From a virus: a DNA stretch of 64,000 bases. The translations under genes were made by a program, and so were the position numbers. Location: IMG/VR virus record IMGVR_UViG_3300045970_000046, positions 1-64,000 of that record, one strand, 5' to 3'. Shown here one piece after another: positions 7,050-25,707 of the stretch. The first letter of the stretch is position 1. The number at the start of each line of letters is the position of its first letter. Under the pieces are notes generated by a model. It saw only the letters and a list, made by a program, of their open reading frames with translations. It ran no database searches and was not told where the DNA came from.

Positions 7050-7344
7050 GGGCCTGAACTGGTTTCGACAGGGAACCGAAAGTAGTAGATGCGTGCCGTG
7101 GTTGGTCAGCAGGCCACGTAAAAAGCAGACCAAACAGAGAAGCGAACGAGCCCATGGCTCTGCTAGCTGTAGCGTAAGTTACACTAGCCGTTGTACCGGA
7201 AGGACCTCGAGTACCGGATACAACGTCATACACGAGGATCGTAGTTAGTACCGTATCAAAGATGTACCGGCTCCGGTAGAGCTACGCACGTAGTATCTGC
7301 TATACTAGATTTTCTGGACCGGGGTTCGATTCCCCGCAGGTCCA
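7050..7344 (+). ncRNA. ssrA: tmRNA (one-piece), tag ANEPMALLAVA
   Basis: The 5' end GGGCCTGAACTGGTTTCGAC is the tmRNA signature. It pairs (7050-7056) with CAGGTCC (7337-7343), and a tRNA-like T arm (CGGGG-TTCGATT-CCCCG) precedes it. The tag frame runs from GCG 7142 to TAA 7175-7177 and encodes ANEPMALLAVA, starting AN and ending in small hydrophobic residues like known degradation tags. tmRNA with SmpB frees stalled ribosomes and marks the product for proteolysis. CCA is not encoded. Phage-borne tmRNA is known but uncommon. Confidence 0.9.
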
Positions 7345-7363
7345 TGTTGTTCGCGTGGGTAGG

Positions 7364-15623: not shown

Positions 15624-16535
15624 TTACATCGGAATACCGATATAATCAGGGCAACCTTTAAGCTGGTCGGACTTAGTTAGAACGTTCTTATACAGTGAAC
15701 AGGTCCACGTACCTCCACCGGTAGGAGACGAATACTGACACGTCCTACAATTCATCTGAGGCTTCTCGTTGTAGTGACACACCTTCTGAAAGTCGCAGAA
15801 GCGACACTTCCACCAGCCCGGACTATCGCTAACCTTGGGCGGGGCCTCTGTGGCCAATACGACCAACTGTGCGCGCTGACGATATTTATCTACCTGCTCT
15901 TTTTCGTAATAGATTATCTCACCGTATAGCTCATCGTCGTTCTTGTTTACGGCGAGGTATAGGGCAGCGGGTAGCTTATATCCATCCATGTATAACTGCA
16001 TCTGGATGAAATGTTCATACTTAGAAGAACGAACCCCCTCTTTGACTAACTTCGTAAAGGATTTATCGCCATGTGTCTTAAACTCACCCAGTATGGCCAC
16101 ATTGGGGTCGAAGTCTGGGCACCCGCGTAAGACGGCGTCGAGAGAACCACCGAAGTGTCCGTCCGCCCCAGTGATTCTGAATTGGTTACCCTTTTCGTCA
16201 TGTTGCCATACCTTACAACCAATCATCCTTAGTAGGGCGACAAACCTCGGTTCCTCGAGGTGTCCGCGGTTGAAGAGGCGTAGTAGTCTCCCGTGAGCAC
16301 GTTTGGTGGTTGCCCATCTAAAGATGTACCAAAGCTCTCGGACACAGTCCCGACCTATCTGGGACGCCCCGAGGTGTGTACGCTCGGAGTTAGTTTCTTG
16401 CCTATAAGCGTCTTCCGCGAGGGGCATAGCCTCCCGTAGATAGTTCCTATAGAGGTTACCTTGATCTTGCTCTAGTAGGGCGTTTATACGAGCAATCGTA
16501 TTAACCGCTAATCTAGGCTTTGTAAGAGTAAACAT
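15624..16535 (-). CDS. PD-(D/E)XK nuclease, RecB/Cas4-like
   Basis: A 303-residue protein with the nuclease motifs RGHLEEPRF, GGSLDAVL (acidic ligand) and GEFKTHGDKSF (E-x-K), then QMQLYMDGY. Cysteines CRFCDFQKVC and CRTCQYS...C in the last 60 residues may bind zinc or an iron-sulfur cluster, as in Cas4/AddB-like enzymes. In phages such exonucleases work with Sak4-type recombinases. Directly upstream of the helicase gene. Confidence 0.8.
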   Translation of the reverse strand: MFTLTKPRLAVNTIARINALLEQDQGNLYRNYLREAMPLAEDAYRQETNSERTHLGASQIGRDCVRELWYIFRWATTKRAHGRLLRLFNRGHLEEPRFVALLRMIGCKVWQHDEKGNQFRITGADGHFGGSLDAVLRGCPDFDPNVAILGEFKTHGDKSFTKLVKEGVRSSKYEHFIQMQLYMDGYKLPAALYLAVNKNDDELYGEIIYYEKEQVDKYRQRAQLVVLATEAPPKVSDSPGWWKCRFCDFQKVCHYNEKPQMNCRTCQYSSPTGGGTWTCSLYKNVLTKSDQLKGCPDYIGIPM

Positions 16536-16921
16536 TAAGCCGCCAGTACCCGAATAACCTCAGCCATAGTTTCTACATGAGTTAAGGGTAGGTGGTAGAA
16601 GATATTCTTCATATGTCCGGTAATATCACGGGCACCTACGATAATGACAGGAATACCATATCCAAGGGCTGCACCAAATTCAGTTGCCATACCACGACCC
16701 CTATCGTCGTGAAGTACAATTACGACCTCGGCGGTACGCACACCGTTCAGGTCTTTACGGGCAGCGTTAGCTAGATATAACGTTAGTTCGTTACCGGTAC
16801 GATCTCCCGCGTCTTCGGGGGTCCAATCCATTGTAATAGTATGACCAGCCTTCTGTAGGAGGAACATAGCGCTACGGACTTGGTCTTTATTATGGAAGCT
16901 GGACGCTACGTAGACGCGCAT
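16535..16921 (-). CDS. nucleoside 2-deoxyribosyltransferase-like protein
   Basis: A 128-residue protein beginning MRVYVASSF and containing GVRTAEVVIVLHDDRGRGMATEFGAAL; Glu81 matches the catalytic glutamate of the family and the length is normal. These enzymes swap bases on deoxyribose, or hydrolyse deoxynucleotides. In a phage with 7-deazaguanine genes it may help balance or alter the dGTP pool. That link is inference. It overlaps the nuclease gene by one base. Confidence 0.7.
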   Translation of the reverse strand: MRVYVASSFHNKDQVRSAMFLLQKAGHTITMDWTPEDAGDRTGNELTLYLANAARKDLNGVRTAEVVIVLHDDRGRGMATEFGAALGYGIPVIIVGARDITGHMKNIFYHLPLTHVETMAEVIRVLAA

Positions 16922-18879: not shown

Positions 18880-19260
18880 TTACTTCTCCAGATAAGCTAT
18901 AGCTAGGCGTAAGATTGCGTGGTCTTCCTTGAAGAGCCCTAATCCACTATTGCAAGAATAACACAGAATGCCACGTATAGCCCCTGTTTTATGATTATGG
19001 TCTACACAAGTTTTTATTGTCGTGGAAATATCTTTTAAACAAAGGGCACATTTACTATCTTGTTGTATAATCATTCTTTCAACATCTTCAAGACTAATTC
19101 CGTAATTATACTTCAAGGCGTGACGTTTATGACGTTCTTTATTCTTAATAACCCATGATAGAGCCGCACACTTACCCGGGCAATATACGATATTGGACTT
19201 AGCCGCTTCAAATACCTCTTTACAGACAGGACACGTCTTTTTATAAATCTTCTTAACCAT
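18880..19260 (-). CDS. HNH endonuclease, endonuclease VII family
   Basis: A 126-residue protein. CPVCKEVF and CPGKC form an N-terminal zinc finger; CALCLKDI, VDHNHKTGAIRGILCYSCNSGLGLFKED is the recombination endonuclease VII signature. Start at ATG 19260: the longer frame from 19401 would begin upstream of the promoter. The gene is A/T-rich compared with its neighbours and is either a Holliday-junction resolvase or, more likely, a mobile HNH gene. Confidence 0.8.
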   Translation of the reverse strand: MVKKIYKKTCPVCKEVFEAAKSNIVYCPGKCAALSWVIKNKERHKRHALKYNYGISLEDVERMIIQQDSKCALCLKDISTTIKTCVDHNHKTGAIRGILCYSCNSGLGLFKEDHAILRLAIAYLEK

Positions 19261-19270
19261 TAGAAGCCCT

Positions 19271-19298
19271 ATATTACTACAGCCGATTTTCTGTACAA
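19271..19298 (-). promoter_or_regulatory. leftward promoter
   Basis: On the minus strand TTGTAC (19298-19293), a 16-nt spacer and TAATAT (19276-19271). Initiation would fall near 19264, four nt from ATG 19260, so the HNH mRNA would be almost leaderless. It drives the leftward recombination operon. Confidence 0.55.
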
Positions 19299-19364
19299 GT
19301 GATATTTTGTGCGCCTTTGGATCCCCGTATTGTGGGTAACTGATCCGGGGGTTCACCTTTTCAC

Positions 19365-19392
19365 TTGTAAGTAAATAGGGGTGACGTATAAT
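19365..19392 (+). promoter_or_regulatory. rightward promoter
   Basis: TTGTAA (19365-19370), a 16-nt spacer and TATAAT (19387-19392). It faces away from the leftward promoter about 70 nt distant and drives the HTH gene, the preQ0 operon and the replication genes. TAGGGAG at 19409-19415 serves the first gene. Confidence 0.65.
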
Positions 19393-19424
19393 GGGCTTCA
19401 CTCTTCATAGGGAGCTTACGTTTT

Positions 19425-19661
19425 ATGGCCAGTAAAATCGGAACATTAATGGAGGAGACAATCAGTCTTCTTCGTGAGAGAACAAAAGCCTTTCCGCATA
19501 TTGCACAGGAGACTGGTATCTCGTTCTATTGGTTGCGTAAATTCGCATACCATGAGATCGATAATCCAAGCGTAAATACCGTTCAGCAACTGTACGAGTA
19601 CCTAGCCGAGCGGAAGTTGGATGTCAAGGTGGAACGTACAGGACCACGGTATGCTGAATAA
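19425..19661 (+). CDS. small HTH (Cro-like) regulator
   Basis: A 78-residue protein with a phage Cro/CI-like fold: LLRERTKAFPHIAQETGISFYWLRKFAYHEIDNPSVNTVQQLYEYLAE. The second and third helices (about residues 28-48) would read DNA. As the first gene after the divergent promoters it is a good candidate to control them. It overlaps queE by 11 nt. Confidence 0.75.
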   Translation: MASKIGTLMEETISLLRERTKAFPHIAQETGISFYWLRKFAYHEIDNPSVNTVQQLYEYLAERKLDVKVERTGPRYAE

Positions 19662-20349
19662 TCAAAATCCTGAAAAGGTAACTAAGGATGAAGAGGGTCG
19701 GCTAGATGTACATAGTATCTTTTACACTATACAGGGCGAGGGTCCGTTTGCTGGAACACCTTCGATCTTTGTTCGGTTAGCTGGATGTAATCTTCAGTGC
19801 CCTAAATGTGATACAGAGTATACGGATAACCGTAAGTTAATGGCTATAGAAGCTATAGGCGCCCGGCTAAACGAACTGTGGCCGCGTAGGGCCGGACAGC
19901 TTATCGTCATTACTGGCGGTGAACCATTTAGGCAGACTAATTTAGGTAACTTTGTTACATATCTACGTTCGTTAGAGTATACTGTCCAGATTGAAACTAA
20001 CGGGACACTCTATGTACCGGGTCCTTGGTCTGAAACAACTATCGTCTGTAGTCCTAAGACTTCAAAGATAAACGAGTTCCTTGGTAGGTATATCAAAGCT
20101 CTTAAGTATGTTGTAGATGTAGGTGGTATAGACTCTAGAGATGGTCTACCGTTACAGGTTATGGGTCACGATAGATTACAACCTGTAGCTCGTCCACCGG
20201 CGGGGTACACAGGATTAATCTATCTACAACCTCTTGACGAACAAGACGAAGGCCGTAATCAGCGTAACAAAGAAATAGCTATCAAGAGCTGTCTCCTATA
20301 TGGTCACAGGTTGTGTCTCCAACTCCATAAAATGCTGGATTTACCGTAG
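19651..20349 (+). CDS. queE: 7-carboxy-7-deazaguanine synthase
   Basis: A 232-residue radical SAM enzyme that turns carboxy-tetrahydropterin into 7-carboxy-7-deazaguanine, step 3 of preQ0 synthesis. TIQGEGPFAG (26-35) and the cluster motif CNLQCPKC (C46, C50, C53) are diagnostic, as is ITGGEP (87-92). ATG 19651 overlaps the HTH gene; the ATG at 19621 is too far inside it. Confidence 0.93.
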   Translation: MLNNQNPEKVTKDEEGRLDVHSIFYTIQGEGPFAGTPSIFVRLAGCNLQCPKCDTEYTDNRKLMAIEAIGARLNELWPRRAGQLIVITGGEPFRQTNLGNFVTYLRSLEYTVQIETNGTLYVPGPWSETTIVCSPKTSKINEFLGRYIKALKYVVDVGGIDSRDGLPLQVMGHDRLQPVARPPAGYTGLIYLQPLDEQDEGRNQRNKEIAIKSCLLYGHRLCLQLHKMLDLP

Positions 20350-20362
20350 CGAGGTTAGATTA

Positions 20363-20536
20363 ATGGACAGAGAAATGCTTGTAAAGTTTCTTGAGTTACT
20401 TGTTGACAAGGAGCGCCGTCTAGAGAAGGGCGCCAAAGACGGATTTGTGGATACTATGACGCACGGGGACCTAATGGAGATCCGGCGCTTTAAGTATCAA
20501 GTTGAAGACCTTCTTTCAGGGCGTAGGGTGGCTTAA
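20363..20536 (+). CDS. small protein between queE and queC
   Basis: A 57-residue helical, charged protein starting at ATG 20363 (GAGG at 20350-20353). Its TAA overlaps queC as TAATG. No known role in the pathway; possibly an unrelated inserted gene. Confidence 0.65.
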   Translation: MDREMLVKFLELLVDKERRLEKGAKDGFVDTMTHGDLMEIRRFKYQVEDLLSGRRVA

Positions 20537-21396
20537 TGGATAACGAACGTTCTAGGACACGGGAGCACGGTGAAATGCGCGCGGTAGTCGTTCTTTCTGG
20601 TGGACAGGATTCTACAACGTGCCTTTTCTGGGCGTTAGAAAATGGGATCGATAAGGTCTACCCTGTAACCTTCGACTATAACCAACGGCATAGCCGAGAG
20701 ATCGACTCAGCGCGTACAATTGTTGATCTCGCTCGTAGGTGGTACGGCTACAATAGGGTTATGGAACATGAAGTTGTAACTCTCGGTCCTGTCCTGAAGG
20801 GAGCGTCACCCCTTGTTTCTCAGAGTAATCTCGAGCAGTACAAAGATCCAGACTCTCTACCGGGTGGACTCGAAAAGACATTCGTTCCAATGCGTAACCA
20901 GTTATTCCTCACGTTGGCAGCCAATCGTGCTGCGGTACATGGCTGTGAGGCATTGGTTACTGGCGTATGTGAAGAGGATTATGGCGGTTATCCCGACTGT
21001 CGACAAACGTTTATCCATGCACTGCAGCATGCATGCAACTTGGGTACGTTCACTGGAGAAGACGGTGCACCACAGTCACTCGCCATTCTTACGCCGCTGA
21101 TGAAACTCTCTAAGGCAGCTACCGTAGCCTTAGCTATGAATCTGAACGGGTGTTACGCAGCCTTAGCCTATAGCCACACCTCGTACGATGGTCAGTATCC
21201 CCCTACAGGTCACGACCACGCAACCCTACTCCGTGAAAAGGGTTTCCGTGACGCTAATGTACCCGATCCTCTTGTCCTGCGGGCATATCTCGAAGGTTTG
21301 ATGGACCTTCCGGAGTGGTATAGGAAGATCGCTAACCTACGGAATTTCTTCGCTATGGCAAACCTTGACTACACTACTGTAGCGGAGAAACTCTAA
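20536..21396 (+). CDS. queC: 7-cyano-7-deazaguanine (preQ0) synthase lacking zinc cysteines
   Basis: A 286-residue ATP-dependent enzyme that converts 7-carboxy-7-deazaguanine to preQ0. The PP-loop SGGQDS is at 21-26 and the C-terminal region aligns well with the family. However, the usual zinc site (SCY...CG-x-C-x-x-C) reads TSYDG (215-219) and PPTGHDHATLLR (222-233), so the four cysteines are replaced by Ser216, Thr224, Asp227 and Thr230. The operon context implies it is active; it may belong to a zinc-free phage subfamily. Confidence 0.9.
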   Translation: MDNERSRTREHGEMRAVVVLSGGQDSTTCLFWALENGIDKVYPVTFDYNQRHSREIDSARTIVDLARRWYGYNRVMEHEVVTLGPVLKGASPLVSQSNLEQYKDPDSLPGGLEKTFVPMRNQLFLTLAANRAAVHGCEALVTGVCEEDYGGYPDCRQTFIHALQHACNLGTFTGEDGAPQSLAILTPLMKLSKAATVALAMNLNGCYAALAYSHTSYDGQYPPTGHDHATLLREKGFRDANVPDPLVLRAYLEGLMDLPEWYRKIANLRNFFAMANLDYTTVAEKL

Positions 21397-21845
21397 TGGA
21401 GCCGACGTTCGTTTACGGTGGTTATCATACGGCTACGAGGTACCATGACATTTCGTGCGGACACAGAGTCGTCGGCCATGAAGGCAAGTGCCGGTTCCTA
21501 CATGGTCATAATTATCGCGTGCATTTTACTTGCCGCGCTAGAAATCTGGACAGCGTTGGCCGGGTAGTAGACTTCGGTGTTATCAAAGAAGCCTTATGCA
21601 TGTGGCTAGAGGTGCATTGGGACCATAAGATGTTACTATGGGACCAAGACCAAATGTGTGCTGCGTTCGAAGTTGAGGATGTAGACTATGTTCCGGTACC
21701 GTTTAATCCAACCGCCGAGAATATGGCCGAGTATTTAGTTCGGAACGTAGCACCCGCGCAGCTTGGCGACCTAGATGTAGAATGCTTCCGCGTTACTATC
21801 GAAGAAACCTCTAAGTGCTCCGCTACCTACGAGATTCAAAAATGA
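21396..21845 (+). CDS. queD: 6-carboxy-tetrahydropterin synthase
   Basis: A 149-residue QueD, step 2 of preQ0 synthesis. The zinc/catalytic set is visible: CGHR (His23 region), GKCRFLHGHNY (catalytic Cys, two His), VHWDHKMLL and the terminal IEET glutamate. Normal length. ATG overlaps the queC stop; its own TGA overlaps the next ATG. Confidence 0.92.
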   Translation: MEPTFVYGGYHTATRYHDISCGHRVVGHEGKCRFLHGHNYRVHFTCRARNLDSVGRVVDFGVIKEALCMWLEVHWDHKMLLWDQDQMCAAFEVEDVDYVPVPFNPTAENMAEYLVRNVAPAQLGDLDVECFRVTIEETSKCSATYEIQK

Positions 21846-22723
21846 TCCGGAAGATTACCAACAGCGAAGTAAATCAATTTGCCTTTATGACGGCTGTAGA
21901 CATTGGCCTTAATCATACAGCCCCAAAGGTCTACCCTATTCCTCGTGGTGGTATTCCGGCAGCCTATGCGGTTAAGACGCATATGTCAGGTATGACGGTT
22001 GTAGATAGTCCTGAAGAGGCCACTATCTTTATCGACGACCTTATCGACTCTGGGGCTACGCAGGATAAGTACGCCGCGCAGTATCCGGGTAAGCCATTCT
22101 ACGCATTACTAGATAAACGAACACCGTCATGGAAGCAGGTGTGGATTGTCTGGCCTTGGGAAGAGACGGCTGAGTCTTCAATTGAGGATAATATTCTCCG
22201 ACTACTTGAGTATGTTGGAGAGGACGTTAGTCGTGAAGGTCTTAAGGAGACTCCTAAACGTGTTGCTAAGGCGTGGAGGGAGTGGTGCTCTGGTTACTTC
22301 CAGAAGCCGGAAGATATCTTAAAAACCTTTATCGACGGAGCTGATGGTTGTGACGAGATGGTAATTCAGAAGGACATTCCCTTCTACTCGCACTGTGAAC
22401 ACCATCTAGCTCCGTTCTTCGGAACCGTAACTATCGCCTATATCCCGAGCGGTAAGATCGTAGGTCTGTCTAAGCTGGCTAGGTTGTCTGACATCTACGC
22501 CAAGCGGTTACAGGTTCAGGAACGGTATACCAATCAGATCGCCAACGCCCTAATGGATAATCTACAGCCTAAGGGTGTCGGAGTAGTCGTTAGGGCGCGC
22601 CACCTCTGCATCGAGTCCCGAGGTGTGGACAAGCAGGGTCACTACACAGTCACCAGTGCGTTACGCGGAGTAATGCGTAGCCTTCCGGAGGCTAGGGCCG
22701 AGTTTCTCTCCCTAGCGAGATAG
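21842..22723 (+). CDS. folE: phosphoribosyltransferase fused to GTP cyclohydrolase I
   Basis: A 293-residue fusion. The N-terminal 110 residues have the PRPP-binding signature FIDDLIDSGAT (63-73) and VYPIPRGG. From about residue 112 it is a full FolE with HCEHH (184-188), GKIVGLSKL and HLCIESRGV, which converts GTP to dihydroneopterin triphosphate, step 1 of preQ0 synthesis. The PRTase part might salvage a base or attach ribose-phosphate to the deazaguanine. That is inference. Confidence 0.92.
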   Translation: MIRKITNSEVNQFAFMTAVDIGLNHTAPKVYPIPRGGIPAAYAVKTHMSGMTVVDSPEEATIFIDDLIDSGATQDKYAAQYPGKPFYALLDKRTPSWKQVWIVWPWEETAESSIEDNILRLLEYVGEDVSREGLKETPKRVAKAWREWCSGYFQKPEDILKTFIDGADGCDEMVIQKDIPFYSHCEHHLAPFFGTVTIAYIPSGKIVGLSKLARLSDIYAKRLQVQERYTNQIANALMDNLQPKGVGVVVRARHLCIESRGVDKQGHYTVTSALRGVMRSLPEARAEFLSLAR

Positions 22724-23730
22724 TGCGCCTATTCCTAGCTGCTTGTTATACTTCGAACTTCGGTAAAGTCGGTACGATTTATTCGAAGCTTACGGACGGT
22801 GAGAAGTATCACCGTGACATCTATAAGAATATCCTCGAGTCGTATCACTATATCCACAAAGAGAGTTACGTCGAAAAGATTAAGACCGATAAGCAAACCG
22901 TGTTCCTAGACTCTGGTGCGTTCTCCGCCTTTACTAAGGGTGTCGAGATCGATATACCTGAGTATTGCGACTATGTAAAACGGAACAAGGATATTATCGA
23001 GGAGGTACCTGTAGACTTTCACGGGTGGAAGGGTAATGTTCAGCTCTTCTCCGTACTCGACTGTATTGGTGACAAAGAGAAGGGTGCCGGTACTCTCCGT
23101 AATCAACAGAAGATGGAGAAGCTCGGAGTATTCCCCCTACCCTGCTTCCACTACGGAGAAGATGAAAAGTATCTAGAACATTATATTAGAAACTATCCGT
23201 ATATCACGTTAGGAGGTATGGTTCCTATCACAACTAAACAGCTCTATCACTGGCTGGATAGGATGTGGGATAAGTACCTTACAGATGAGAACGGCGTTCC
23301 GAAGGTCAAGGTGCATGGGTTCGGCTTAACAACACTAGAACTAATGACGAGGTACCCTTGGTACTCCGTGGACTCGTCGTCGTGGGTACAGATAGCGGTT
23401 CACGGTAACATACTGATCCCCGACGGTCACCTAGACGGTGTACAGATTAACCCCAACGAGATCCACACACCCGGCGACAAAATTCTCGCGATATCGTCGG
23501 ATAGTCCCCGCACCAAAGAACAATGGGCACATTACGATACCTTACCCGAACAGATGCAACAGGCTGTTCTTAAGTGTATCAATAAGACTGGTTTCGAAGT
23601 TAACAGACTACGGACCAGTGCTTATTCCAGATGGGCGTGGAACTTCTTCGCCTTTAGAGAAATCGAAAAGCGGGTTAACGCTCACGATACTATTCATTTT
23701 AAACCCGAACAGAGATTACTTTTCGGATGA
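22723..23730 (+). CDS. dpdA: DpdA-like 7-deazaguanine DNA transglycosylase
   Basis: A 335-residue protein of the tRNA-guanine transglycosylase superfamily in its phage DNA form. FLDSGAFSAF, GGMVPITTKQ and VHGFGLTTLELM ... YSVDSSSW carry the conserved Asp residues expected in the active site. DpdA enzymes swap guanine in DNA for preQ0 or a derivative. Starts with GTG 22723, overlapping the folE stop by one base, so it is coupled to the synthesis genes. Confidence 0.85.
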   Translation: MRLFLAACYTSNFGKVGTIYSKLTDGEKYHRDIYKNILESYHYIHKESYVEKIKTDKQTVFLDSGAFSAFTKGVEIDIPEYCDYVKRNKDIIEEVPVDFHGWKGNVQLFSVLDCIGDKEKGAGTLRNQQKMEKLGVFPLPCFHYGEDEKYLEHYIRNYPYITLGGMVPITTKQLYHWLDRMWDKYLTDENGVPKVKVHGFGLTTLELMTRYPWYSVDSSSWVQIAVHGNILIPDGHLDGVQINPNEIHTPGDKILAISSDSPRTKEQWAHYDTLPEQMQQAVLKCINKTGFEVNRLRTSAYSRWAWNFFAFREIEKRVNAHDTIHFKPEQRLLFG

Positions 23731-24251
23731 TATCTTGGGACTACGAAGGTTCTGAAGGTATAGGTCCTGGTCAACAGGCTTTTTGTGCTATTCCATACTG
23801 TACACGGGCAACCGAACAGCGTGGTTTATGTAACTCATGCTTTCAGGCGTGGTACCGCTATGGAATGATTGGTTTGGAAAGACGGGCTCGTCGTGTAGAG
23901 TTAGGCCTCGGTACCCGAATTATCGTTCCACTACAATTAGAGCCAGCCTTAGAGTTACTAACATCGACGTATGAAAAACTACTAGAATCTGAAGAAAACG
24001 ATAGTGAATACCAGAAGATAAGACAGTGCCTTATCAGGATATGTAAGGCAATTGGGACCATAGAACTTCGTAAAGAATATCGTCGCCAACAGAACCGTCG
24101 TAAACTTGAATATATCGCACGTTATGGTCGAAAGGCATGGTTAAAGAAACAGAGTGATAGTCAACTAGCCTATAGGCAACGTAAGATAGCTAAGGGTTGG
24201 AAAAGAACAACAGTCGACGGTCGTCAAACTTGGATAAAAGCTAATGAATAA
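23727..24251 (+). CDS. zinc-finger protein, basic C-terminus
   Basis: A 174-residue protein with an N-terminal zinc finger (CAIPYCTRATEQRGLCNSCFQAWYRYG, about residues 20-46), of a type found in phage DNA-binding proteins and beside HNH genes. Its C-terminal half is very basic. It overlaps dpdA by 4 nt and the next HNH gene by 8 nt, and may travel with that HNH gene. Confidence 0.65.
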   Translation: MISWDYEGSEGIGPGQQAFCAIPYCTRATEQRGLCNSCFQAWYRYGMIGLERRARRVELGLGTRIIVPLQLEPALELLTSTYEKLLESEENDSEYQKIRQCLIRICKAIGTIELRKEYRRQQNRRKLEYIARYGRKAWLKKQSDSQLAYRQRKIAKGWKRTTVDGRQTWIKANE

Positions 24252-24705
24252 CGATAGGCCTACATACTATTCTCGTAATCGAGAAAGATTACTAAAACAA
24301 CAAAAAGAACACTACCATAGTGAGCAGGGTCAAGCCGTAAGAAAGGCTTATGTATCTAGTGATGACTTTAGGAAAAAAGACTCAGCTTACCATAAACTTT
24401 ATCTGAAGACACCAAAAGGTAAGCTAATCGCTTATAAACGTGGGGCTAAATCTAGAGAACTTAGTTTTCTATTGACAGTAGAACAATTTAATAATCTGAT
24501 AAGCCAGTCTTGCCATTACTGCGGTGGAGAGGGAGGTGGAATCGATAGATTACATAGACATTTAGGCTATGAACTACGGAATTGTGTTCCAGCATGCTAT
24601 AGATGTAATTTAAGTAAGCATACAATGAACGAACAAGAATTTATGGAATGGATTACAAGAGTATATACACATATGGTAAGTAGTGGTAAGGTAAGGGTAG
24701 GTTAA
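24244..24705 (+). CDS. HNH endonuclease
   Basis: A 153-residue protein. CHYCGGEGGGIDRL, NCVPACYRCNLSKHTMN and EFMEW match the phage HNH family of homing-type nucleases; the long basic helical N-terminus would bind DNA. A/T-rich codon use, as for the other two HNH genes in the window. Confidence 0.85.
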   Translation: MNNDRPTYYSRNRERLLKQQKEHYHSEQGQAVRKAYVSSDDFRKKDSAYHKLYLKTPKGKLIAYKRGAKSRELSFLLTVEQFNNLISQSCHYCGGEGGGIDRLHRHLGYELRNCVPACYRCNLSKHTMNEQEFMEWITRVYTHMVSSGKVRVG

Positions 24706-24711
24706 TACTGT

Positions 24712-25707
24712 ATGAATTTAGAGGCCCTTACCTTTGCCCAAGGTGGCGTATCACGCAAAGATTTTGTTCCCTCTTTGCAGTTCTTTAACATAGCTGATGG
24801 CCGTATTCTTGGATTTAACGGTAATATCGCAATGAGTAGCCCTATCGACGTAGGGATCTCTTGTAATCCAAAAGCCATCCAGTTCATTAAAGCTATTAAG
24901 ACTTGTCGCGACCCTCAAGTTTCTATCTGGGTAACCGCGGGTAATCGCCTCGCTATTAAGAGTGGTGGGTTCACAGGATTTGTGGACTGTATCGAAGAAC
25001 ACGACTTTCCCGGTATCAAACCCGAAGGTCAGATAATCGATTTACCTACTGACGAGAACGGTCAGGGTACGTTACTTAAATCTCTTGCTATACTAGCCCC
25101 CTTTATCGCAGCAGATGCTTCACGTTCATGGGCCCGTGGTATTCTATTTCGTGGTCGCTCTGCGTACGCGACCAACAATATTATCTTAATCGAACGCTGG
25201 TTAGATGTACCCTTCCCGGTCGAGATTAACATACCGGAAGATACGGTCTACGAATTACTCCGTATCCGTGAAGAGCCGATCAAGTTACAAATTTGTGAGA
25301 ACTCGGCTACATTCCACTATAGGAACGATAGGTGGCTGCGGACCTGTCTGTACGCTACATCTTGGCCTAACCTAACACCTATTCTGGATAAACCCTGTAA
25401 TCCGACACCGATACCGTCTGGTATGCCGTATGCACTAGACGACCTTACAATCTTTACCGATGATCTACAACGTATTTACTTTCAGAAGAACAAGATGTCC
25501 ACAAAGCCGGTCGTAACTGATACGGGGGCCTTTTTCGAAGTTGAAGGTACACCTGACACCGGTTGCTACAATCTTTCTCAGTTGAAGTTACTAATGCAAG
25601 TTGCCCATACCGTAGATTGGACGTTATTCCCTGACTCTCCTTGCTTATTCTTTGGTGACCAACTTAGAGGCGCAATCGTTGGAATGCGTGAAGCTAATGA
25701 GCTGTAA
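24712..25707 (+). CDS. sliding-clamp-like protein (DNA polymerase beta-clamp type)
   Basis: A 331-residue protein. The order of elements (GRILGFNGNIAM, WARGILFRGRSAYATNNIILIERW, WPNLTPIL, FFGDQLRGAIVGMR near the C-terminus) resembles bacterial beta-clamp domains 1-3, with a length close to 360 residues. It would hold the family A polymerase on DNA. The match is from pattern reading only. Confidence 0.55.
   Translation: MNLEALTFAQGGVSRKDFVPSLQFFNIADGRILGFNGNIAMSSPIDVGISCNPKAIQFIKAIKTCRDPQVSIWVTAGNRLAIKSGGFTGFVDCIEEHDFPGIKPEGQIIDLPTDENGQGTLLKSLAILAPFIAADASRSWARGILFRGRSAYATNNIILIERWLDVPFPVEINIPEDTVYELLRIREEPIKLQICENSATFHYRNDRWLRTCLYATSWPNLTPILDKPCNPTPIPSGMPYALDDLTIFTDDLQRIYFQKNKMSTKPVVTDTGAFFEVEGTPDTGCYNLSQLKLLMQVAHTVDWTLFPDSPCLFFGDQLRGAIVGMREANEL

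Follow-up and report, generated by a model that had tools for sequence, protein, structure and literature searches.

We analysed a 64,000-bp stretch of virus DNA (hereafter the window), i.e., bases 1-64000 of the linear, 75,119-bp IMG/VR record IMGVR_UViG_3300045970_000046, which may itself be incomplete. Its positions 19425-23730 carry an operon that very probably belongs to the known DpdA-type phage operons for DNA modification with 7-cyano-7-deazaguanine (preQ0), in which the transglycosylase DpdA puts preQ0 into phage DNA as an anti-restriction camouflage. As a system, it is a further example of an already known type of phage, whose DNA contains the corresponding deoxynucleoside (dPreQ0). 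The QueC of the operon belongs to a large group of phage proteins that lack the zinc site regarded as a defining feature of QueC. We give more weight to this result than to the operon, which by itself adds one unsurprising uncultured dPreQ0 phage. A large group of otherwise intact phage QueC, together with the QueC of at least one bacterial chromosome, lacks the motif by which the enzyme is defined and whose alteration is used to predict the loss of preQ0 synthesis. In the open-access literature, which did not cover two 2023 papers in Nucleic Acids Research, we found no description of a zinc-less QueC, nor of the second unusual protein of this operon, a fusion between a domain resembling xanthine-guanine phosphoribosyltransferase (XGPRT) and FolE.

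A group of phage QueC without the zinc site

The hallmark of QueC is the zinc motif C(x)8CxxCxxC, and zinc is reported to be needed for function (PMC13329287). When the window QueC is aligned with that of Bacillus subtilis, TSYDGQYPPTGHDHAT stands where the latter has TCYNG...GCGECPAC. The four positions of the zinc cysteines are occupied by Ser, Thr, Asp, and Thr, and the C(x)8CxxCxxC pattern is absent. The other motifs listed for the family (PMC13329287) are kept, namely the SGGxDS phosphate loop, YxQxHxxE, VPxRN, YPDC, and the essential tyrosine of the zinc region (Y189). The AlphaFold (AF2) model has a predicted local distance difference test score (pLDDT) of 91.8 and is confident in the altered region (block means of 91-97); its best fold matches are the solved QueC structures 2pg3 and 3bl5.

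Relatives were collected by searching viral contigs with a QueC alignment. Among 176 aligned QueC, none of the 89 sequences of the window type keeps any zinc cysteine, and the 87 others (79 from genome contigs and 8 from phages) all keep the four of them. The sample was picked by similarity to the zinc-less type and hence provides no natural frequency of the two forms, but the clean split between them is real. The replacement is itself conserved, as [SA]-YDGxYPP-x-G-x-[DN]-H-A-[TSN]: all 89 zinc-less proteins have D or N at the third site, T, N, or S at the fourth, and the essential tyrosine. Decay of the gene can be rejected, given that 40 zinc-less sequences share 61 invariant columns, including those of the catalytic motifs. 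We also rejected zinc economy as the driver of the loss, because the zinc ligands of FolE are kept.

The zinc-less form was found in the named phages VPv64, Baskent_P4_1, Me-ZS1, MMDA13, RHEph04, Iggy, and Pa-oumiga. The cysteines are kept in the QueC of CAjan, BcepGomr, 033B, Dp-1, CP220, and a phage of the Rosebush genus. In 44 of the 47 well-flanked IMG/VR loci, the gene encoding the zinc-less protein adjoins a strong or weak match to dpdA.

Organization of the operon and catalytic residues

The operon is arranged head to tail on the + strand, in the order helix-turn-helix (HTH) gene, queE, a small open reading frame (ORF), queC, queD, a two-domain gene in which a phosphoribosyltransferase (PRT) domain precedes folE, and dpdA. 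Its features and their conserved downstream neighbour are the following (window coordinates, with E-values unless stated otherwise):

19425..19661, +, HTH/repressor-like gene, first of the unit; phrog_9425 (transcriptional repressor) 1.3e-9; its stop overlaps the start of queE by 11 nt
19651..20349, +, queE; phrog_2076 1.5e-48; Radical_SAM Pfam match; NCBIfam QueE models 2e-24, below cut-off
20363..20536, +, small ORF of 57 aa between queE and queC, without a convincing family match
20536..21396, +, queC-like preQ0 synthase of the zinc-less subtype; PF06508 6e-50; TIGR00364 155.2 bits for a cut-off of 150.3
21396..21845, +, queD, 6-carboxytetrahydropterin synthase; PTPS Pfam 1.1e-26; phrog_2389 1.6e-48
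21842..22723, +, PRT-folE, one gene with two domains
21842..22180, +, XGPRT-like domain, N-terminal part of PRT-folE
22181..22723, +, folE, GTP cyclohydrolase I domain; GTP_cyclohydroI 4.5e-69; NF006825 above cut-off
22723..23730, +, dpdA, phage-type (DpdA1-like) DNA-guanine transglycosylase with a GTG start; phrog_887 8.4e-74; NCBIfam DpdA weak, 2e-4
24712..25707, +, DNA polymerase processivity factor (clamp); phrog_947 1.9e-55; conserved downstream of dpdA in relatives

The original prediction, which was made from the sequence alone, described these seven genes as coupled by short overlaps. The family matches and the common strand bear out the gene set, and overlaps of 1-11 nt are found at five of the six junctions; the remaining one, between queE and the small ORF, is a 13-nt gap (in gene order, the junctions are -11, +13, -1, -1, -4, and -1 nt). 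The earlier calls of queC and of a PRT domain also stand, although neither the loss of the zinc site in the former nor the XGPRT-like nature of the latter had been mentioned. For queE, an alternative in-frame ATG upstream, at 19621, is possible. A conserved role of the 57-aa ORF was rejected, since unrelated small ORFs fill the same gap in relatives.

The order queE-queC-queD-folE-dpdA-clamp-DNA polymerase recurs in BcepGomr, RHEph04, CAjan, Me-ZS1, MMDA13, Vibrio phage 033B, and Iggy, in some cases with small extra genes. The conservation of this order across many other phages shows that the arrangement is not due to chance. The transcription unit may extend past dpdA, whose end is overlapped by 4 nt by an ORF of 174 aa, followed by an HNH gene. 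Genes of the endonuclease VII/HNH type flank the operon on both sides (18880-19401, - strand, and 24244-24705, + strand). In most relatives the clamp follows dpdA directly or after small genes, so the 174-aa ORF and the downstream HNH gene seem to have been inserted here.

Except for the zinc site of QueC, all catalytic residues that we checked across the operon are present. QueE carries CNLQCPKC, which corresponds to the Cx3Cx2C motif, and QueD keeps CRFLHGH (Cx3HxH) and the DH pair. The zinc ligands of FolE, C185, H188, and C256, are invariant among 11 phage FolE. DpdA has the positions expected of a protein resembling tRNA-guanine transglycosylase (TGT), in LDSGAFSA (D63), LDCIGD (D113), GGMVP, HGFG (H198), and VDSSS (D217). 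D63, D113, H198, and D217 do not vary among 45 phage DpdA, and we take D63 and D217 to be the catalytic aspartates of TGT. The protein shares 47-53% identity with its counterparts in CAjan, Iggy, and other phages. A profile of 10 DpdA had no match in the PDB, and one of 45 DpdA had as top match the bacterial DNA-guanine transglycosylase 7ui4, with an E-value of 1.1 that is not significant alone. Hence, the kinship of the fold rests on the motifs and on phrog_887.

An XGPRT-like domain fused to FolE

The PRT domain has the fold of XGPRT. A profile of 21 phage PRT domains matches XGPRT and xanthine phosphoribosyltransferase (XPRT) structures of the PDB over its whole length (E-values of 2.9e-10 to 1e-8). 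The AF2 model of the domain has a pLDDT of 94.9, and its top Foldseek hits are the XGPRT of Escherichia coli and Yersinia pestis (E 5e-6, template modelling (TM) score ~0.7). This is a type I PRT fold with a phosphoribosyl pyrophosphate (PRPP) motif and a purine pocket, and the sequence includes PRGGIPAA, IDDLIDSGAT, and WIVWPWE. Most loci with the domain carry it as a fusion to FolE, and a few encode it as a separate or cut-off ORF; several phages lack it.

The domain would plausibly serve either to salvage the guanine released by DpdA or to regulate FolE. In the first case, it would recapture this guanine as GMP, which would then be turned into GTP for FolE. In the second, it would sense guanine nucleotides. 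A purely regulatory domain, responding to GMP, PRPP, or guanosine tetraphosphate (ppGpp), for example, and controlling FolE without being a salvage enzyme, is a serious contender even if we regard it as somewhat less probable. It would be in line with the lack of a segment of ~18-20 residues that aligns with the flexible catalytic loop of XGPRT (a gap in the profile alignment), with the presence of the ppGpp-bound relative 5vog among the structural matches, and with the domain being short and mostly fused to FolE. On the other hand, the PRPP motif, the PRGG loop, and the base-pocket motif W..PWE are conserved in 18-21 phage sequences, which argues against this reading. The fusion suggests a testable fate for the guanine freed by DNA transglycosylation.

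Predicted chemistry and its alternatives

The gene content suggests the following pathway. FolE would convert GTP into dihydroneopterin triphosphate, QueD would make 6-carboxytetrahydropterin, and QueE would make 7-carboxy-7-deazaguanine (CDG). The zinc-less QueC most likely still catalyses both of its steps, from CDG to 7-amido-7-deazaguanine (ADG) and from ADG to preQ0. DpdA would then swap guanines for preQ0 in finished (post-replication) phage DNA, probably in short motifs such as GA, a last step that would require no additional enzyme after QueC. The resulting dPreQ0 is predicted to block many restriction enzymes. The known target motifs are GA and GGC. On balance, we favour the view that the widespread zinc-free phage QueC makes the preQ0 nitrile and that, in part of the phages, it does so beside an XGPRT-FolE that recycles the guanine expelled by DpdA.

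This pathway has precedents. In Rosebush and CAjan, which have the minimal set of FolE, QueD, QueE, QueC, and DpdA without amidotransferase, dPreQ0 represents ~28-32% of the G in DNA (Hutinet et al., PMC6884629). In CAjan, inactivation of dpdA removes dPreQ0 and restores digestion by restriction enzymes (PMC6884629). By analogy, this supports the protective role proposed for the operon in the original prediction. In Iggy, dPreQ0 was reported at a single GA motif, with in vitro protection from restriction and Cas9 (10.1093/nar/gkad622, as cited in PMC11008142).

Several points weigh against this view of the operon. The virus is uncultured, and dPreQ0 is predicted from its genes. A tailoring gene could lie outside the linear and possibly incomplete record, and the host QueC could supply the phage with preQ0. 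The XGPRT-like domain may not be catalytic, because the flexible-loop segment is missing. Finally, the window QueC lacks a motif whose zinc is reported to be required, and it could stop at ADG or act otherwise.

The latter scenario, in which the zinc-less QueC halts at the amide ADG or earlier and the DNA holds not dPreQ0 but dADG or some other intermediate, seems unlikely to us. Its appeal lies in the loss of all four cysteines of a motif regarded as the hallmark of the enzyme (PMC13329287), and in the existence of phages with dADG (PMC8306585). Yet, the motifs for preQ0 formation, including Y189, are intact, and the Campylobacter phage CP220, which has dADG, retains the cysteines. Iggy, which is reported with dPreQ0 in the source cited above, carries the same zinc-less subtype. 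A zinc-less QueC is paired with a match to QueF in MMDA13 and in no fewer than 11 IMG/VR loci, L028 being one of them. Since QueF needs preQ0 as a substrate, these pairings hint that the zinc-less QueC is active.

Beside Iggy and these pairings, a third and independent hint of activity comes from a bacterium. In a single-cell genome of Candidatus Hydrogenedens, a zinc-less QueC (L099:5944-6729) adjoins queE in an ordinary chromosomal setting. It is the only clear QueC of this genome, which has QueF, TGT, and QueA elsewhere. This suggests that queuosine can be made with a QueC of this subtype. This genome is incomplete, which lessens the value of the case for our interpretation. In trees built without the zinc region, the distribution of the two forms needs 3-5 changes, compared with 19-27 in shuffles; the test of a single zinc-less clade gave an approximately unbiased p-value (p-AU) of 0.07 with the Hydrogenedens sequence and 0.16 without it, neither of which rejects such a clade or establishes it. 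The zinc form probably exists near the zinc-less group, since a close relative with cysteines is found in L098, a phage-like contig filed under Zixibacteria as a metagenome-assembled genome (MAG), with the order queC-queE-queD-PRT-folE-QueF-DpdA relative. Activity of the zinc-less enzymes would mean that QueC chemistry can do without zinc and that annotation rules relying on the motif have to be corrected; it would also open the nitrile-forming step to study in a natural zinc-free variant.

A separate question is whether preQ0 is the final base. The only match to the Pfam QueF profile in the whole 75,119-bp record falls inside FolE, a related T-fold protein, in agreement with the earlier claim that QueF-like reduction is absent. 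The same record contains no class-II amidotransferase (GATase), no DUF5591/ArcS-type domain, no YhhQ preQ0 transporter, and neither a GAT domain fused to QueC nor QueF-L, the features of the 9g type (dG+). A Pfam scan of 54 other ORFs retrieved no amidotransferase or formyltransferase; the decorating enzymes DpdL, DpdM, and DpdN were not searched directly. As the record is possibly incomplete, the absence of tailoring genes is not final. The original prediction proposed preQ0 or a derivative formed by an unrecognised enzyme as the base. The first option has good support from homology and from the same minimal set giving dPreQ0 in CAjan and Rosebush, and we found no positive evidence for the second.

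A further derivative, e.g., formylated, methylated, or amidated by such an enzyme, is improbable. It draws on the many ORFs of the record without a family and on the decorated bases known in other phages (10.1093/nar/gkad657, as cited elsewhere). The absence of QueF and of the above-mentioned transferases speaks against it, as does the sufficiency of the minimal set in CAjan and Rosebush. In addition, decoration is said, in a 2023 paper on such bases, to start from preQ1 or CDG, which we count against a derivative of preQ0.

That the operon instead acts on host or phage tRNA, by supplying queuosine or modifying tRNA, is very improbable: DpdA is within the TGT superfamily, with many annotations as queuine tRNA-ribosyltransferase, and the phage encodes tRNAs and a transfer-messenger RNA (tmRNA), but the TGT profile PF01702 hits nothing in the record at E<=1, not even DpdA, this DpdA groups with the DNA-acting DpdA of phages, and the deletion of dpdA in CAjan strips the modification from DNA (PMC6884629).

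Other features of the record

The tmRNA lies at positions 7050-7347 of the window (+ strand; RF00023, 119 bits, E 5e-46). The 29-aa tag called by ARAGORN looks wrong, and the likely frame is ANEPMALLAVA*, which ends in AVA where the canonical tag has LAA. A nucleoside 2-deoxyribosyltransferase-like protein is encoded at 16535-16921 (- strand; PF05014 4.8e-6, phrog_7995), beside a Cas4-type exonuclease, and may be connected with the metabolism of deoxynucleotides or deazaguanines. A match to phrog_757, annotated as DNA methyltransferase (6e-57), was found at L002:8898-9458 (- strand) and may stand for an additional DNA modification or for a methyl-related enzyme. Finally, an ATP pyrophosphatase resembling 3'-phosphoadenosine-5'-phosphosulfate (PAPS) reductase (PF01507), a common phage gene, is at L002:11496-12488 (- strand, ~73495-74487 of the record).

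Comparison with known systems

At the level of single proteins, the window QueC shares the fold, SGGxDS, YxQxHxxE, VPxRN, YPDC, and the essential tyrosine with the canonical enzymes of B. subtilis (3BL5) and E. coli. The defence paralogues Cap9 and QatC keep the zinc cysteines, whereas all four are replaced here. The PRT domain shares the fold, the PRPP motif, the PRGG loop, and the base-pocket motif W-x-x-P-W with the XGPRT of E. coli (Gpt), from which it differs in its size of ~113 aa, its fusion to FolE, and the missing flexible-loop segment.

At the level of the operon, the record fits the "group 2" dPreQ0 phages of Hutinet et al. (CAjan and Rosebush, and also Iggy), because it has no QueF, GAT-QueC amidotransferase, ArcS-type domain, or preQ0 transporter. 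Like these phages, it has a phage-type DpdA with homologues of FolE, QueD, QueE, and QueC, and no amidotransferase (GAT-QueC, QueF/QueF-L, or ArcS). CAjan has the same gene order beside the clamp and the DNA polymerase. However, CAjan and the phage of the Rosebush genus keep the zinc cysteines of QueC that the window lacks, the FolE of CAjan has no PRT domain, and CAjan has a gene for a preQ0 transporter that is absent from this record.

Pseudomonas phage Iggy (Iggyvirus, Queuovirinae) has the same order, queE-small ORF-queC-queD-folE-dpdA-clamp-polA, along with a zinc-less QueC and the dPreQ0 reported in the above-cited source. Its FolE lacks the PRT domain, and its DpdA and QueC are respectively 47% and 45% identical to those of the window. 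The closest named relatives are Variovorax phage VPv64, Pseudomonas phages PSASB_03 and Baskent_P4_1, and Stenotrophomonas phage ply2008005c. Identities with this group are 68% for the terminase and 53% for DpdA (both in VPv64, PSASB_03, and ply2008005c), ~71% for QueC, and 62-63% for PRT-FolE. Their genomes are smaller (42-43 kb, against 75 kb here) and the annotation of Baskent_P4_1, unlike the window, has neither an HNH nor a 174-aa gene between dpdA and the clamp. The phages of this group share with the window both the zinc-less QueC and the PRT-FolE fusion.

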